Source: Asaia bogorensis (GTDB taxonomy: Bacteria > Pseudomonadota > Alphaproteobacteria > Acetobacterales > Acetobacteraceae). From it: a stretch of 45,998 nucleotides of DNA. Below the pieces are notes generated by a model. It was not told the DNA's origin and did no database searches. It was given only the letters and a program-made list of their open reading frames with translations. Positions within the stretch are counted from its first letter, which is position 1. Every line of letters begins with the position of its first letter. Of the stretch, positions 24,915 to 31,535 are shown piece by piece. The DNA lies in the NCBI GenBank assembly GCA_945874805.1, contig CAMCJI010000002.1, positions 1-45,998 on the forward strand, read 5' to 3'. The translations under genes and the position numbers were made by a program.

Positions 24915-25883
24915 CTACTCCGCCGCGCCGCGCTGCTTGGCCAACTCCTGCGCCGCCCATTTGTCGTGATGCGCCTTCGCCCAGTTGACGTCCACGCGGC
25001 CGTTGCCCATGGCGTCGAACGCGCCCTCCATGCCAACCGAGCCGATATAGATATGGCCGAGAATGGCGGCGATCATCACCACGGACAGCGCCCCGTGGAT
25101 CACCTGCATCACCTGCATGCCGCCGATATCGGTCACCGTGAAGGGGAACATCAGCACGAACCCGGTCGCCGCGATCAACCCGCCGAAGCCGACGACGATC
25201 CAGAAGATCATCTTCTGCCCGCCGTTGAACCGGCCCGACGGCGGATGGCCCTTGCCGATCAACCCGCCGCCCTGGCGGAACCACTCCAGATCGATCTTGT
25301 TCGGGATGTTGTGGCGGATCCAGACCAGCAGCATCAGCACGATGCCCAAGGTGAAGGGGAACGCCATGTAGTTGTGGCTATACTTGGCGATCTGCGCGAA
25401 AGCGGCGAAGGCATCCGCCCCGATCAGCGGCATCAGCACCTTGGCCCCGATCGCCACATTCAGCCCCGAAATCGCCAGAACGATCCAGGACACCGCAACC
25501 AGCCAATGCATGAACCGCTCGAACCCGCCGAAGCGGGTCAGCGTCCGGCCAGACGGCCCGCCCTCGATCGGGATGCGCCCGCGGGTGAGATAAAAAAGCA
25601 CGAGCGCGACGGTGGTGCCGATGACGAAAATGCCGATCAGCCAAGGCAGTACGCCGCGATGGTAGTCGCGGTAGGCCTGCCCGTCGGGTTGGATGAGCAC
25701 CGCCGCCTTGCCGTCCGGAATGGTGATCGACCCCGTCACCGGCTTCAACGCGCCGAGCAACTGCTCCTCCGACACCGCGGAGGTGGTGGGATTGAAACCG
25801 GAAACCGGTGCCGGCGGCCGCGTCTGCGCGTCGGCCGCGCCGGCGATGAGAAGTGCCGCAAGAGCGAAAAGAAGAGCCCGCAT
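24915..25883 (-). CDS. fdoI: Formate dehydrogenase, cytochrome b556 (gamma) subunit
   Basis: This membrane subunit takes electrons from the beta subunit through two b hemes to quinone. The 322-residue protein begins with a cleavable signal peptide (MRALLFALAALLIAGAADAQ) and a periplasmic segment of about 70 residues, then five hydrophobic helices (for example LPWLIGIFVIGTTVALVLF, HWLVAVSWIVLAISGL, MAFPFTLGIVLMLLVWI). Histidines at helix ends (FMHWLV, YSHNYM, VIHGAL, LGHIYIG) are candidate heme ligands. It has the family motif IRHNIPNKIDLEWFRQGGG. The start at ATG 25883 overlaps the beta-subunit stop (TGATG); a longer frame to 25919 lies within that gene. Confidence 0.93.
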   Translation of the reverse strand: MRALLFALAALLIAGAADAQTRPPAPVSGFNPTTSAVSEEQLLGALKPVTGSITIPDGKAAVLIQPDGQAYRDYHRGVLPWLIGIFVIGTTVALVLFYLTRGRIPIEGGPSGRTLTRFGGFERFMHWLVAVSWIVLAISGLNVAIGAKVLMPLIGADAFAAFAQIAKYSHNYMAFPFTLGIVLMLLVWIRHNIPNKIDLEWFRQGGGLIGKGHPPSGRFNGGQKMIFWIVVGFGGLIAATGFVLMFPFTVTDIGGMQVMQVIHGALSVVMIAAILGHIYIGSVGMEGAFDAMGNGRVDVNWAKAHHDKWAAQELAKQRGAAE

Positions 25884-26482
25884 CAGACTTTCACCGTTTC
25901 CTTGTAGGCCGTTTTCCAACCCCAGGCGCCGGAGCCGTAGCCGCGCTTGAGCACGCGCTCACGATAGATCTGCGCCACCATGTCGCCATCGCCGGCGAGC
26001 AGCGACTTCGTCGAGCACATCTCGGCGCACAAGGGCAACTTGCCCTCGGCCATGCGGTTGGCGCCGTATTTGGCGAACTCCACCGCCGAGCCGTCCGCCC
26101 CTTCCGGGCCGCCCGAGCAATAGGTGCACTTGTCCATCTTGCCGCGGCTGCCGAAATTGCCGACGCGCGGATACTGCGGCGCGCCGAAAGGGCAGGCGTA
26201 GAAGCAGTAGCCGCAGCCGATGCAGAGGTCTTTGCTGTGCAGCACCACCCCGTCGGCGGTGGTGAAGAAGCAATCCACCGGGCAGACGGCCGCACAGGGC
26301 GCGTCCGTGCAGTGCATGCAGGCCATCGAAACCGAGCGCTCGCCCGGCTTGCCGTCGTTGATGGTCACCACGCGGCGGCGGTTGATGCCCCAGGGCACTT
26401 CGTTGGCGTTCTTGCAGGCGGTGACGCAGGCGTTGCACTCGATACAACGATCGGCGTCGCAGAGGAATTTGACGCGGGCCAT
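25883..26482 (-). CDS. fdoH: Formate dehydrogenase, iron-sulfur (beta) subunit
   Basis: This 199-residue ferredoxin-like subunit carries four 4Fe-4S clusters between the molybdopterin subunit and cytochrome b. Cysteine groups are visible: CIECNACVTACK (near residues 13-24), CMHCTDAPCAAVCPVDC, CIGCGYCFYACPFGAP, and CTYC with CAEMC. It is shorter than E. coli FdnH/FdoH because it lacks the C-terminal membrane helix, as in other alphaproteobacterial enzymes. It begins two bases after the alpha-subunit stop. Confidence 0.95.
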   Translation of the reverse strand: MARVKFLCDADRCIECNACVTACKNANEVPWGINRRRVVTINDGKPGERSVSMACMHCTDAPCAAVCPVDCFFTTADGVVLHSKDLCIGCGYCFYACPFGAPQYPRVGNFGSRGKMDKCTYCSGGPEGADGSAVEFAKYGANRMAEGKLPLCAEMCSTKSLLAGDGDMVAQIYRERVLKRGYGSGAWGWKTAYKETVKV

Positions 26483-26484
26483 TT

Positions 26485-29394
26485 CTATGCCGCCCCTTCA
26501 TTGGCTTTGGTGATCTGGCAGAGGGTGACCTTGGTTTCCTGCATGTAGGTCACCGGGTCGTAGCCATAGGTGGTCAGCGAGTTGACGCTCTCGCCCAGCA
26601 CGTAGGGATCGGTGCCGGCGGGGTAGTTTTTCCGCTGGTCAACGCCCTGGAACCAGCCGCCGAAGTGGAAGGGCATGAACGCCACACCCTTGCCGACGCG
26701 CTCGGTCAGCATCGCCTTCACCTTCGCCTTGCTACCGTTCTCCGGCCCGGTCACCCAGACCCACCCGCCGTCCTTGATGCCGCGTTCGGCCGCATCGGCG
26801 GGATTGATCTCCACGAACATGTCCTGCTGCAACTCGGCCAGCCAGGGGTTCGAGCGCGTCTCCTCGCCGCCGCCCTCGTATTCGACCAGCCGGCCCGACG
26901 TCAGCACGATCGGGAACGACTTAGCGGTGCCGGCATCCACCGCCTTTTTCTGCACGGTGCCGCCGATATTGGCCATGCGGAAGGCCTTATAGTCCGGCAG
27001 GGTCGGGTATTGCGCCACCAGATCGGGCCGTGAGGTATAGATCGGCTCACGGTGCACCGGCACGGGGTCGGGCAGGTTGAAGGCGTTGGCCCGCGCCTTG
27101 GCATTGCCGTAGGGCACAACCCCGTGGGCGATGCACACGCGCTGGATGCCGCCCGAAAGGTCGATCGCCCAGGACACGTTGTCCGGATTATTGCCGCCGA
27201 CCCGCCGTATCACCGCCATCTCGGCCTCGGTCAGTTCGCTGTCCCAGCCGAGCTTCTTCAGCACGCCGAGGGTGAATTCCGGATAGCCGTCCTTGATGTC
27301 CGAACCGAGCGAGAAGCTGCCTTCGGCCAGCAGGGTCTCGCCGTTGCGCTCCACGCCGAACCGGGCGCGGAACGTGCCGCCACCGTCCTTCACGTGCAAT
27401 GCCGTGTTGTAGAGCGTGTGCGTGCCGGGGTGCTTCTGCTCCGGCGTGCCCCAGCAGGGCCAGGGCAGACCGTAGTAATCGCCGGCCACCGAGCCTTCCT
27501 TGGCGCGCAGGCTGGTGATGTCGAACAGATGCTGGTTCGCCATATGCTCCTTCAACCGCTCCGGCGACTGGCCGGTATAGCCGGTGGACCAGGCGCCGCG
27601 GTTGATCTCGCGGGTGATATCTTCGGCAACCGGCTGCTTGCCCTCGACCTTGATGTTCTTGAACAGCTTGTCGGCGAAGCCGAGCTTCTCGGCGAGGCGA
27701 TACATCACCTCATAGTCGTCGCGGCTCTCCCAGATCGGCTTCACCACCTGCTCGGACCACTGGATCGAGCGGTTCGAGGCGGTGCGGCTGCCCGTCGTCT
27801 CGAACTGCGTGCAGATCGGCAGCAGATAGGTGCCGTTCTTGCGCTCGCTGATATGGGCGAAGGTGGTCGGATGCGGGTCCGCCACGACGAGCAGGTCGAG
27901 CTTCTCCAGGCCCTTCACCATCTCCGGCATGCGGGTGACGGTGTTGCCGCCATGGCCGAAGACCACCATGCCCTTGATGTTGTCGCGCTGGGCAAGCTGG
28001 TCCTTGGGCAGCAGCACGGCGTCGAACCAGCGGGTGGTGGGGATGCCGCTGGCCTCCATCATCGCCTTGCTGTCAAAACGCTCCTGAAGCCATTGATAAT
28101 CAACTTCCCACACCCGCGCCCAATGGCGCCAGGCGCCCTCGGCGAGGCCGTAGTAGTAGGGCAGCGAAGTGACATCGAGGCCGGCATCCGTCGCGCCCTG
28201 CACGTTGCAATGGCCGCGGAAGATGTTCGCGCCGTTGCCGAACCCGCCGACATTGCCGGTGGCCAGCAGCAGGATGCAGTAGGCGCGCACGTTGGCGGTG
28301 CCGACAGTCTTTTGCGTCGCACCCATGCACCAGATCAGCGTGGCCGGCTTCTGCCGCGCCATCATCTCGGCGACGCGCTTGAGCTCCTCGCCCTTGATGC
28401 CGGAGACGCGTTCCACCTCGGCCGGCGGCCACTTCGCCACCTCCTTGCGCACGTCCTCCATCCCATACACGCGCTGCTTGATGAAGTCCTTGTCCTCCCA
28501 GCCGTTCTGGAAGATGTGCCACAGCATGCCCCAGATCACCGGAATATCGGTGCCCGGACGCAGGCGCAGATAGTCGGTGGCGTGTGCGGCGGTGCGGGTG
28601 AAGCGGGGGTCGATCACCACGAGATTGGCGCGGTTGACCTCCTTGGCGACCATCAGGTGCTGGAGCGAGACCGGGTGCGCCTCGGCGGGGTTGCCGCCCA
28701 TCACCACCATGGTCTTGGAATTGCGGATGTCGTTATAGCTGTTGGTCATCGCGCCATAGCCCCAGGTGTTGGCAACACCCGCGACCGTGGTGGAGTGGCA
28801 GATGCGCGCCTGGTGGTCCACCGAGTTGGTGCCCCACATCGCCGCGAACTTGCGATACAGATAGGCGCCTTCGTTCGAGAACTTGGCGCTGCCGAGCCAG
28901 AACACGCTATCCGGCCCTGAATTCTTCCGTATTTCCAGCAACTTGTCGCCGATCTCTGAGATGGCGACATCCCAGGTGATCTTCTGCCACTGCCCGTTCA
29001 CCAGCTTCATGGGCGAGCGCAGGCGCCGCGTCCCCTTCACCAGTTCGCGCACGGCAGCACCCTTGGCGCAGTGGCTGCCACGGTTGATCGGGCTGTCGAA
29101 AGCGGGCTCCTGACGGATCCACACGTCGTTCTGCACCTCGGCGATCACTGTGCAGCCGACCGAGCAATGCGTGCAGATTGCCTTGATGCGCTTGATCGGC
29201 AGCTTCGGATCAACGGCGGCGGCCTCGGCCTTGCGGACGGCCCCCAGCGTCACCGCGGCGGCGCCAAGTGCGGCGGTGGCAAAGCCGGCGCGGCGCAGGA
29301 AGGCGCGCCGGTCGAGCGCGCCGGATGACAGCTCGCCGAGGACGGATTGCAGACGGGTCTTCTGGACCTGGGAGTCGCGGCGTTTGATCAACAT
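26485..29394 (-). CDS. fdoG: Formate dehydrogenase, molybdopterin (alpha) subunit
   Basis: This catalytic subunit oxidises formate to CO2 on a molybdenum or tungsten bis-pyranopterin. The 969-residue protein has a twin-arginine signal (DRRAFLRRAGF, residues about 28-38), so it is exported folded to the periplasm. The N-terminal 4Fe-4S motif is CTHCSVGC followed by HCAKG. The active-site residue is Cys199 (codon TGC at 28800-28798, in ARICHSTT), where E. coli FdnG has selenocysteine; His200 follows. GGNPAEAHPVS and the C-terminal molydopterin-binding barrel (GWVWVTGPENG) are present. GAGGG precedes ATG. The chaperone and Tat protein genes lie upstream in the same operon. Confidence 0.96.
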   Translation of the reverse strand: MLIKRRDSQVQKTRLQSVLGELSSGALDRRAFLRRAGFATAALGAAAVTLGAVRKAEAAAVDPKLPIKRIKAICTHCSVGCTVIAEVQNDVWIRQEPAFDSPINRGSHCAKGAAVRELVKGTRRLRSPMKLVNGQWQKITWDVAISEIGDKLLEIRKNSGPDSVFWLGSAKFSNEGAYLYRKFAAMWGTNSVDHQARICHSTTVAGVANTWGYGAMTNSYNDIRNSKTMVVMGGNPAEAHPVSLQHLMVAKEVNRANLVVIDPRFTRTAAHATDYLRLRPGTDIPVIWGMLWHIFQNGWEDKDFIKQRVYGMEDVRKEVAKWPPAEVERVSGIKGEELKRVAEMMARQKPATLIWCMGATQKTVGTANVRAYCILLLATGNVGGFGNGANIFRGHCNVQGATDAGLDVTSLPYYYGLAEGAWRHWARVWEVDYQWLQERFDSKAMMEASGIPTTRWFDAVLLPKDQLAQRDNIKGMVVFGHGGNTVTRMPEMVKGLEKLDLLVVADPHPTTFAHISERKNGTYLLPICTQFETTGSRTASNRSIQWSEQVVKPIWESRDDYEVMYRLAEKLGFADKLFKNIKVEGKQPVAEDITREINRGAWSTGYTGQSPERLKEHMANQHLFDITSLRAKEGSVAGDYYGLPWPCWGTPEQKHPGTHTLYNTALHVKDGGGTFRARFGVERNGETLLAEGSFSLGSDIKDGYPEFTLGVLKKLGWDSELTEAEMAVIRRVGGNNPDNVSWAIDLSGGIQRVCIAHGVVPYGNAKARANAFNLPDPVPVHREPIYTSRPDLVAQYPTLPDYKAFRMANIGGTVQKKAVDAGTAKSFPIVLTSGRLVEYEGGGEETRSNPWLAELQQDMFVEINPADAAERGIKDGGWVWVTGPENGSKAKVKAMLTERVGKGVAFMPFHFGGWFQGVDQRKNYPAGTDPYVLGESVNSLTTYGYDPVTYMQETKVTLCQITKANEGAA

Positions 29395-29404
29395 GGCAGG
29401 GCCC

Positions 29405-29605
29405 TCAGTACCGGTTCACGCGATAGAACTGCTTCACGTGCTCGTTTTCCTTGTATTGGCTGCCACCCTTGCCTGCCGGCGGCTTCATCGCCTCGGCCGG
29501 GGCGGTGCGGGTGGCCACGGCGACGGCCACGGCGGCCGTGCCCAAGCCGAGGCGTTTGAGCACGCGGCGGCGCAGGCTGGTTTCGGCGTCGGTCTTGTCG
29601 GTCAT
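29405..29605 (-). CDS. Small formate-dehydrogenase-region Tat-signal protein
   Basis: The protein of 66 residues has a twin-arginine-like signal (RRRVLKRLGLGTAAVAVAV...APAEA) and a short mature part ending YKENEHVKQFYRVNRY. It matches the known 'formate dehydrogenase region TAT target' family found beside fdoG in many proteobacteria; its function is not established. ATG 29605 has GGAGG eight bases upstream. An in-frame ATG at 29623 overlaps the stop of the chaperone gene (ATGA) and would give 72 residues. It ends ten bases before fdoG. Confidence 0.85.
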   Translation of the reverse strand: MTDKTDAETSLRRRVLKRLGLGTAAVAVAVATRTAPAEAMKPPAGKGGSQYKENEHVKQFYRVNRY

Positions 29606-29619
29606 CGCTTGGTCCTCCG

Positions 29620-30387
29620 TCATGCCGGCAGCGCGAAGGCTGCCTGCTCGATCTCAATCACGACGCGGCCGAGCTGCCCCAGCGCTGCATAGAGCGGGGC
29701 ATCGGTGACGCGTTCCAGGTCCTTGAAGAAGCCGCGCGCCCAGGGCTGCAAATGGCGCGCGAAGAAATGCCCGTCATCGAGGGCCAAGGCGCCCTCCCCG
29801 GCGCGTATCAGCCCGGCCATCGTCTCGCACAGGAAGGCGATATGGTCCTCAGGTTCGGCGATGCCGTCGCCACGTACCAGACCCATGCGATGCAGATCGG
29901 CACGAATCTCCGCCAGCGGGCGTTCATGCAAAAAGCCGGTCAGGTAGTAGGAGGCATAAGGCATCAGCTCGCCGCCGCCGACGCCGGTGAACAGGCGGAA
30001 ATGCGCCCGCTCCTCCTGCTCCGGCGAGGTTGCGCGCGCTGCCGCGGCCAGGGCGGCGCGGGCGGTGCCAAGGTCGGACGAGTCGCCCGGCAACTGCCCC
30101 AGCCTGGCCAGCAAAGCCGCATCCGGCGCCTGCCACATCAGGGCGGCCAGCAGCGCATAGGCATCCGCCCGGCCGGCAGAAACGGCGTCGAGCTCGGCCG
30201 CAGAGACCAGCGCGGATTCGGTGTAGAGGTCGGGGCGCAGCAGCGTTCGGGGGATACCGCTGGCCGCCTCGACCGACAGAACACGATCTGGCGGCACCCG
30301 GCGCCAAGCGGATACGGCCGGCTGCGACACACCGATCAGCCGGGCCAGGGCGCTGACGCCACCCACCACTGCTATCGCCTTGTCCAA
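29620..30387 (-). CDS. YdaS-type HTH / TorD-family chaperone fusion
   Basis: The protein joins two domains. Residues about 1-58 are a Cro-like helix-turn-helix of the YdaS type: GGVSALARLIGVSQPAVSAW, VPPDRVLSVEAASGIPR and the family ending LLRPDLY. The rest (about 70-255) is a TorD/DmsD-like helical chaperone (ADAYALLAALM, LLARLGQLPGDSSDL, YASYYLTGFLHERPL, EPEDHIAFLCETMAGLI, FFARHLQPWARGFFKDLE), which would bind the Tat signal and help cofactor loading of FdoG. No ATG exists in frame. I chose TTG 30387 (GGGA seven bases upstream); TTG 30405 and 30456 are alternatives, but 30456 lies upstream of the predicted -10 box. It is the first gene of the fdo operon. Confidence 0.85.
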   Translation of the reverse strand: MDKAIAVVGGVSALARLIGVSQPAVSAWRRVPPDRVLSVEAASGIPRTLLRPDLYTESALVSAAELDAVSAGRADAYALLAALMWQAPDAALLARLGQLPGDSSDLGTARAALAAAARATSPEQEERAHFRLFTGVGGGELMPYASYYLTGFLHERPLAEIRADLHRMGLVRGDGIAEPEDHIAFLCETMAGLIRAGEGALALDDGHFFARHLQPWARGFFKDLERVTDAPLYAALGQLGRVVIEIEQAAFALPA

Positions 30388-30445
30388 CGCCGCATCCCGC
30401 AAAGGCCGCCCCCCGAAGGCGGAGCTTGCCCCGCCACATTGGGCA

Positions 30446-30464
30446 CCATAAGACAAGCTTATGG
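30446..30464. promoter_or_regulatory. Palindromic operator candidate of the fdo operon
   Basis: CCATAAGACAAGCTTATGG has perfect seven-base arms (30446-30452, 30458-30464) around a five-base centre. It covers the predicted -10 box and part of the spacer of the fdo promoter, a position typical for repression. CAAGC also recurs 20 bases away (30454 and 30474). The HTH domain of the first operon gene is the obvious candidate regulator; binding is inference. Confidence 0.6.
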
Positions 30465-30476
30465 CCGCCGAGGCAA
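30448..30476 (-). promoter_or_regulatory. Predicted sigma70-type promoter of the fdo operon
   Basis: On the minus strand TTGCCT (30476-30471) and TCTTAT (30453-30448) are 17 bases apart. Transcription would start near 30441, leaving a leader of about 50 bases to TTG 30387. Match to consensus is moderate (4/6 each). Confidence 0.45.
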
Positions 30477-30506: not shown

Positions 30507-31535
30507 TCACGCCTTCCGGCGGCGGCGGGAGAGCACGCCAAGCCCGGCGAGCCCGGCGCCAAACAGCAGAGCCGATGCGGGTTCCGGCGCGTTGGCCAGC
30601 ACCAGGCCGCTCCAGGGATTCGCCCTGATCAGCGCCCCGTTGGCGGTGAAGAAAAGTTCGGTCGATGTGGTCGAGAGCGAGTTGGTCATGAACACGCCGC
30701 CATCCACGGTGCCCGCCACCGACATGGTGGTGTTGGGCGCCACGAAATAGCTGCCGACCGAGGTCTTGCCCGACCCGACGACGACGGTCGTGCCATCGGC
30801 CGCCACCACGATGACATTCGTCGCAACGGTCGAACCGGCCAGCGTAATCGAGCCCGCGGAGGTCATGCCGCCCTGGAGATAGACGAAGAAGTAGTTGCTC
30901 GCGCGCGTGCCGGACAGCACGAGATTGGTCGTCAGCGCCCCCGTCACCGTCACGGCGTTGTAGCCGTTGCGGCCGACGGAAACCGTGCCGCCCGTGCCGC
31001 CCGCCACCGTATGATCGGCAGTCAGGCCGGCAACCGTCGTACGAACGCCCTGCACCGCGGCGACGGCGGTGCTCATGTTGATCCCGGTCTTGTTGGCGTT
31101 CTCGCCGGTCAGCGCAGCCGGCGGCGTCGGCGTGCCGGTGGAGCGATAGACATCCTTATTGTAGGTCACGCCACCATTCGTGGCGTTGACCATGTTCGTC
31201 GTATCGCCGGTGCCACCAGCAATAAACCGCGAACCGACATTGTTGGCGTTGGCGGCGCCCAAGGCGACCGTTCCCTGGATCGTCGAAACGGTCGTTCCGG
31301 TGACATTCTGAATTCGGATCTGCGAATACTTCGTCGAGCTCAGGCCGCCCGCATAAACGGTGGCGCCCGCCGTGGTGATGACGTTGTTCACGTCGAACGC
31401 AGCGCCGACGCCGCCGGCTGCAAGCGAGCCGCCAAGCGAAAGCGCCTGCACGCTGGTATAAGCCACAGCCGACGCAACCGACGGCATCGCCATCGTCGCT
31501 GCCGCCATGCCAGCGAACAAACCAACCTTTTTCAT
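30507..31535 (-). CDS. Secreted choice-of-anchor A-like protein with PEP-CTERM anchor
   Basis: The 342-residue protein has a signal peptide (MKKVGLFAGMAAATMAMPSVASA) and a C-terminal PEP-CTERM anchor (APEPASALLFGAGLAGLG... then SRRRRKA). The mature part is rich in Thr, Val, Gly and Asn. Residues about 230-310 (TNVIVVAADGTTVVVGSG, GSYFVAPNTTMSVAGTVDGGVF) resemble the beta-helical 'choice-of-anchor A' adhesin-like domain; I base this on pattern memory. The next in-frame ATG upstream (31556) has no ribosome-binding site, and a frame running to 32003 enters the DUF3306 gene, so ATG 31535 is preferred. It interrupts the formate dehydrogenase island between its two minus-strand operons and has its own promoter-like sequence. 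Confidence 0.82.
   Translation of the reverse strand: MKKVGLFAGMAAATMAMPSVASAVAYTSVQALSLGGSLAAGGVGAAFDVNNVITTAGATVYAGGLSSTKYSQIRIQNVTGTTVSTIQGTVALGAANANNVGSRFIAGGTGDTTNMVNATNGGVTYNKDVYRSTGTPTPPAALTGENANKTGINMSTAVAAVQGVRTTVAGLTADHTVAGGTGGTVSVGRNGYNAVTVTGALTTNLVLSGTRASNYFFVYLQGGMTSAGSITLAGSTVATNVIVVAADGTTVVVGSGKTSVGSYFVAPNTTMSVAGTVDGGVFMTNSLSTTSTELFFTANGALIRANPWSGLVLANAPEPASALLFGAGLAGLGVLSRRRRKA

Follow-up and report, generated by a model that had tools for sequence, protein, structure and literature searches.

A formate dehydrogenase chaperone of Asaia bogorensis carries a DNA-binding domain, and nearly all its relatives with such a domain have matching palindromes at the promoter of their own gene. 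In a stretch of 45,998 nucleotides from this organism (the window), the gene at the head of the formate dehydrogenase operon codes for a YdaS/Cro-type helix-turn-helix (HTH) domain fused to a TorD-type chaperone. The findings would best be explained by a bifunctional protein, chaperone and autoregulator in one, with an operon output following the balance between chaperone and client, and we regard this explanation as a whole as reasonably likely. The features concerned are listed in Table 1.

Table 1. Features of the window and HTH fusions of other proteins (locus number before the position)
Feature	Position	Strand	Basis or remark
HTH-TorD fusion gene, 259 aa	29620..30399	-	TTG start at 30399; Pfam matches to both domains
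YdaS/Cro-type HTH	30217..30387	-	recognition helix SQPAVSAWRR, LRPDLY end; PF15943, P22_Cro, AlphaFold2, Foldseek
TorD/DmsD/NarJ-type chaperone domain	29725..30084	-	EPEDHIA motif; PF02613, Foldseek
Candidate operator CCATAAG-N5-CTTATGG	30446..30464	.	perfect 7-bp arms; centre 56 bp upstream of start codon
Putative promoter TTGCCT-N17-TCTTAT	30448..30476	-	read by eye; conserved in relatives
PEP-CTERM protein gene	30507-31463	-	between DUF3306 and HTH-TorD genes, just upstream of candidate operator
Formate dehydrogenase region TAT target (TIGR02811)	29405..29623	-	start overlaps stop of fusion gene
fdoG, formate dehydrogenase alpha subunit	26485..29394	-	presumed chaperone client; TIGR01591 1.2e-135
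fdoH, iron-sulfur subunit	25883..26482	-	Fer4 domains
fdoI, cytochrome b subunit	24915..25919	-	open frame, true start inside; PF01292 2.6e-26
HTH-MobB fusions	L241:2954-3781, L242:2987-3742, L243:2945-3838		PF03205 to 9e-52
HTH-pyruvate kinase fusion, 549 aa	L245:2309-3958		N-terminal P22-Cro/YdaS-type HTH
HTH-NAD(P)HX epimerase/dehydratase fusion, 575 aa	L247:820-2547	minus	YjeF_N plus Carb_kinase; YdaS HTH 5.6e-21

The original prediction, made from the sequence alone, had joined a YdaS/Cro-type HTH ending in LRPDLY to a TorD/DmsD-like chaperone. Profile searches bore this out, the motif included: both domains lie in a single minus-strand frame and exceed the curated Pfam cut-offs, with 4.3e-13 and 49.3 bits for YdaS_toxin (PF15943; cut-off 30), 3.9e-8 and 33.4 bits for P22_Cro (PF14549; cut-off 30.2) and 2.8e-26 and 92.6 bits for Nitrate_red_del/TorD (PF02613; cut-off 22.2). 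The upstream edge had to be corrected, as position 30387, where the gene had been taken to begin, is the beginning of the HTH profile match and no start codon; we set the start at the TTG codon at 30399, because the relatives begin with a conserved M-R-D-x-G-L. The Pfam name YdaS_toxin carries no implication of toxicity for the fusion protein, in which the HTH is the N-terminal domain of a chaperone and not a free-standing small protein like YdaS. The fusion is present in a single copy in the Asaia bogorensis genome, which contains a second, weaker PF02613 match elsewhere.

Structural comparisons agreed with these assignments. In a PDB sequence search, the C-terminal part led to DmsD and the N-terminal part to Cro proteins. 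An AlphaFold2 model built on 57 sequences shows both folds at a mean pLDDT of 91, with HTH helices at residues 3-12, 15-22, 26-31, 37-47 and 51-54 and a dip in confidence at residues 61-70, the linker. Using Foldseek, the HTH part was matched to Xfaso 1 Cro (3bd1; 43% identity, rmsd 1.2, TM by target 0.81) and the chaperone part to DmsD (3efp, E 5e-5, and 3cw0) and NarJ (8jzd), which share the all-helical fold of maturation proteins. In the E-P-x-D-H motif, P183, E184 and D185 are invariant and H186 is conserved to at least 90% among 59 fused and unfused members.

The fusion gene had also been proposed to be the first gene of the fdo operon. This holds for the tight torD-TIGR02811-fdoGHI unit, which is nearly gapless and has the HTH-TorD gene at its head; the unit itself lies within a longer co-directional cluster. 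The TIGR02811 match of the second gene (5e-12, 46.0 bits) is slightly below the curated cut-off of 48.45, and a twin-arginine leader, DRRAFLRRAG, can be read from the translation of fdoG. Upstream follow co-directional genes for LplA-like, DUF6505, DUF6352, DUF3305 and DUF3306 proteins, an order that does not differ between genomes with the fusion and those without. The congeneric genome G756 (locus L113) shows the same insertion of a PEP-CTERM protein gene between the DUF3306 and HTH-TorD genes.

The promoter region of the fusion gene contains a perfect palindrome, the candidate operator, and relatives have homologous palindromes at the corresponding promoter. The 4.53-Mb genome contains its core, CATAAG-N5-CTTATG, a single time, and a search for copies with one mismatch found none. 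We therefore discarded a wider regulon in the own genome, given that there is no second exact operator; the loose pattern ATAR-N7-YTAT occurs there 14 times versus 28 times for a reversed-pattern control, i.e., without excess. In the putative promoter, which scores under the threshold of the promoter scan, the -10 box shares bases with the right half of the operator. A TTG is found 16-18 bp before the right half-site in 13 of 15 loci with an ATAA-type site, placing the half-site at the expected -10 position.

HTH-TorD fusions proved to be common across the Acetobacterales and Hyphomicrobiales; Bradyrhizobium and Roseococcus are among the genera that have one. In the sample from the window's own order, full-length fused matches were obtained in 19 genomes (its own included) and matches to the chaperone part only in about 75. 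The family of genome G1119 has the gene fused in 58 places and unfused in about 22, and that of genome G361 has about 80 fused and 10 unfused copies. A sample of the phylum gave no full-length fused match outside the Alphaproteobacteria. Chance and artefacts of annotation or assembly were ruled out as origins of the fusion by its recurrence in dozens of independent genomes and by the profile scores. A copy on a Bradyrhizobium plasmid is publicly annotated merely as "molecular chaperone TorD family protein", and its HTH goes unnamed.

On reading the promoters of the fused genes, we saw a palindrome in nearly every one. The HTH domains were assigned to subtypes by their recognition helices, QPxxSxW for subtype A, RRTVFxW for subtype B and KQANVWHW and relatives for subtype C; B and C also exceed the PF15943 cut-off. 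In the first set of dereplicated loci, ATAR-N7-YTAT was present in all 16 of subtype A, GTGCA-N7-TGCAC in 13 of 14 of subtype B and ACAAA-N4-TTTGT in 3 of 3 of subtype C. There was no cross-subtype occurrence of the patterns, and none of the three was found in the promoters of unfused orthologues (0/67). Dinucleotide shuffles of the promoters gave on average 0.11, 0.01 and 0.0 matches for the A, B and C patterns, respectively. Because all three had been composed after inspecting the first promoter set, we tested the subtype A pattern, fixed beforehand, on loci fetched later. It was present in 8/8 new fused and 0/6 unfused loci of a first held-out round and in 57/58 fused loci (51/52 non-redundant) of a second, for which the controls gave 0/981 background tiles from the same loci and 2/58 reversed promoters. 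Taken together, 75 dereplicated loci of subtype A were examined, and 74 have the site.

Where 5-kb flanks were included, the torD promoter was the place of the site; the few additional copies mostly lay next to it. Genomes with subtype B contain two to five copies of GTGCA-N7-TGCAC, the fdo promoter always being among them. In all 13 subtype B loci with a site, it directly follows TTGAC, and it is only about 10 bases away from the start codon. The sites of subtype B and of the window's clade overlap the predicted -35 and -10 boxes or lie between them; many others, including those of Hyphomicrobiales loci, lie beside, over or upstream of the -35 box. Five loci (L037, L042, L123, L129 and L039) show a second palindrome about 70-100 bp upstream of the fusion gene, e.g., TTGAGAATGCTTCGCATTCTCAA or TTAATAATCATTATCAATTAA. 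The second palindrome of subtype B promoters resembles iron boxes of the Fur/Irr type, which suggests that these promoters may be under additional iron control.

Exceptions and substitutions were also recorded. Among the subtype B loci only L091 lacks an intact site; there the operator and the HTH are both degraded, the HTH to below the PF15943 cut-off. The unfused genes of L028, L078 and L134, whose proteins are nested among or beside fused subtype A proteins, have no site. Locus L227 retains an intact HTH and has no operator in its promoter. Within subtype A, proteins with QPA in the recognition helix have an ATAA/TTAT operator in 15 of 18 cases and those with QP[STP] in 0 of 56, while Ser, Thr or Pro goes with ATAG/CTAT in 56/56 (Fisher 4e-13). 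This association is not phylogenetically independent: on the tree it traces back to five changes, of which a single one is a well-supported contrast, too few for a phylogenetically corrected test, and a code by which the helix residue would track the operator base is therefore suggestive only. In a tree of the chaperone domains, subtype C stands apart from A and B. A single clade of all fused proteins was rejected (AU test, p 0.0014), implying that the fusion either had several origins or has moved, and A plus B as one clade is compatible with the test (p 0.14). Because subtype B is nested within a clade of unfused Acetobacteraceae proteins, its HTH would have been either lost repeatedly and changed, or regained.

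HTH-only matches in large open frames turned out to be other fusions, namely of MobB, pyruvate kinase and NAD(P)HX epimerase/dehydratase. The genes for the fusions of MobB, the molybdopterin-guanine-dinucleotide adapter, adjoin moeA and mobA; MobB has a part in making the cofactor needed by FdoG. Further HTH-MobB fusions were noted in L250-L254, and the family of G361 has well over a hundred MobB copies, of which at least six are fused. Among the HTH-MobB genes examined, only that of L243 has ATAG-N7-CTAT upstream, the others having at most a half-site. An intact HTH thus does not always imply autoregulation. HTH matches like that of the pyruvate kinase fusion were seen in many Acetobacteraceae genomes, in open frames 545-594 aa long.

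The DNA-binding role that had been proposed for the fusion gained strong comparative support, since the HTH is real and subtype-specific operators at the gene's own promoter co-occur with it. We are highly confident that the protein binds DNA at the candidate operator, and it very probably autoregulates the torD-TIGR02811-fdoGHI operon. In the proposed mechanism, a dedicated TorD-type chaperone of the Tat-exported FdoG would have received a grafted Cro/YdaS-type HTH, which as a dimer would bind the palindrome inside its own promoter and control the operon, most likely by repression. The position of the sites, on the -10 box for the ATAA type or right behind TTGAC in subtype B, predicts this mode, to which we assign a good likelihood; the position relative to the promoter varies among loci, and repression need not be the mode in all of them. 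Immature FdoG in the chaperone domain would then probably alter dimerisation or DNA binding, and the output of the operon would follow the chaperone/client balance. The chaperone domain is taken as the sensor because of the architecture, a PF02613 protein adjoining FdoG, its presumed client encoded by the operon to be controlled. Modulation of DNA binding by the client, to which this architecture alone points, has in our judgement an even chance of being correct, and the folding-to-transcription feedback is a well-founded hypothesis. We slightly prefer the free over the client-loaded chaperone as the repressor, because newly made client would then call for more chaperone. A farther-reaching version is possible, if somewhat doubtful: the chaperone would read the pool of cofactor-free FdoG via the signal peptide and tell the promoter, and it would be one case of a wider, so far unrecognised alphaproteobacterial class with a grafted Cro/YdaS-type HTH on TorD, MobB, pyruvate kinase and NAD(P)HX repair proteins, each sensing the state of its own substrate.

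All operator evidence would fit equally well with plain autoregulation, in which the HTH keeps chaperone and operon at a set level by negative feedback and no signal comes from the client. The structural model has its lowest confidence in the linker, so the two domains may be uncoupled. On the other hand, this chaperone has acquired an HTH on two or more occasions, with differing subtypes, which would be odd if a separate small repressor sufficed, and we consider autoregulation without client signalling the less probable course. The fusion might also activate the operon, at least where the site precedes or covers the -35 box, as in many Hyphomicrobiales loci; in the window's clade and subtype B, where the site is on the -10 box or in the spacer, this is hard to envisage, and activation appears improbable.

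The remaining alternatives detach the palindromes from the HTH. If another regulator, e.g., of the LysR type, used them, the HTH would be vestigial or serve for dimerisation only. Subtype A sites do fit the T-N11-A box of LysR regulators, and exact look-alikes (ATAAG-N5-CTTAT) occur beside LysR genes in G559 and G564; the subtype B and C sites, however, do not fit this box, the sites come and go with the HTH and change with its subtype (74/75 for A, 13/14 for B, 3/3 for C and 0/67 for unfused genes), and no LysR gene was found among the recurring genes of the conserved fdo neighbourhoods mapped for fused genes. Such a regulator is therefore very improbable. Exact CATAAG-N5-CTTAT sites away from fdo were noted at L179:7298 and 2683, L180:2991 and 7656 and L181:5049. 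Where checked in relatives, the non-fdo sites belong to unrelated operons and lie beside LysR-type genes in two of three loci (L180 and L181); they are probably LysR boxes that share the half-site by chance. Even less credible is a role of the palindromes as hairpins of a leader RNA controlling translation or termination. They are inverted repeats upstream of a start codon, only about 10 bases away in subtype B, but their arms are short (4-7 bp), and they coincide with -35 and -10 elements and differ by HTH subtype.

How the synthesis of a large molybdoenzyme is matched to the capacity for its folding and loading is an open question, and in HTH-TorD the link between folding factor and promoter lies within one protein. 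Judged from the comparative evidence, the cell probably sets the amount of enzyme through the chaperone itself. Three natural HTH/operator pairs, together with many HTH-less orthologues as controls, make the question directly testable. Behind many TorD annotations, and behind some for MobB or pyruvate kinase, there may be hidden transcription factors.

The fusion protein shares its fold, the conserved EPxDH motif and a gene position beside a Tat-exported molybdoenzyme with the TorD/DmsD/NarJ chaperones, whose known members differ from it in having no DNA-binding domain. One TorD homologue serving a formate dehydrogenase is FdhM of Campylobacter jejuni (PMC10609526). Another periplasmic formate dehydrogenase under study is the fdh3DABC product of Methylorubrum extorquens (PMC12180729). 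A text search in a 2023 review of redox-enzyme chaperones met no mention of a DNA-binding domain. Our search covered a library of open-access papers, with most subscription journals outside its scope, and found no paper describing a TorD-HTH or MobB-HTH fusion; within the same library, we found no precedent among molybdoenzyme chaperones for HTH-bearing versus HTH-less forms. The prophage Cro proteins (Xfaso 1 Cro, 3bd1; P22 Cro, 1rzs) and YdaS have a similar HTH but are free-standing small phage regulators. PutA and other trigger enzymes likewise are metabolic or maturation proteins with a fused DNA-binding domain, which in PutA is a ribbon-helix-helix; PutA senses the redox state or the membrane, and no chaperone is involved. 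In type III secretion circuits such as SicA/InvF, the occupancy of a chaperone feeds back on transcription. There, the chaperone works via a separate activator (PMC10977090), whereas the HTH is fused to the chaperone in HTH-TorD. The biotin protein ligases offer a further parallel, as group II enzymes (BirA) contain an HTH and group I enzymes do not (PMC4016012). As in BirA-like regulators, a maturation protein with an N-terminal HTH has HTH-less orthologues in the same gene context and, here by comparative evidence, an operator before the genes of its own pathway; the two systems differ in the HTH family and in the ligand, which is biotinyl-AMP for BirA and would be a protein client for the fused chaperone.
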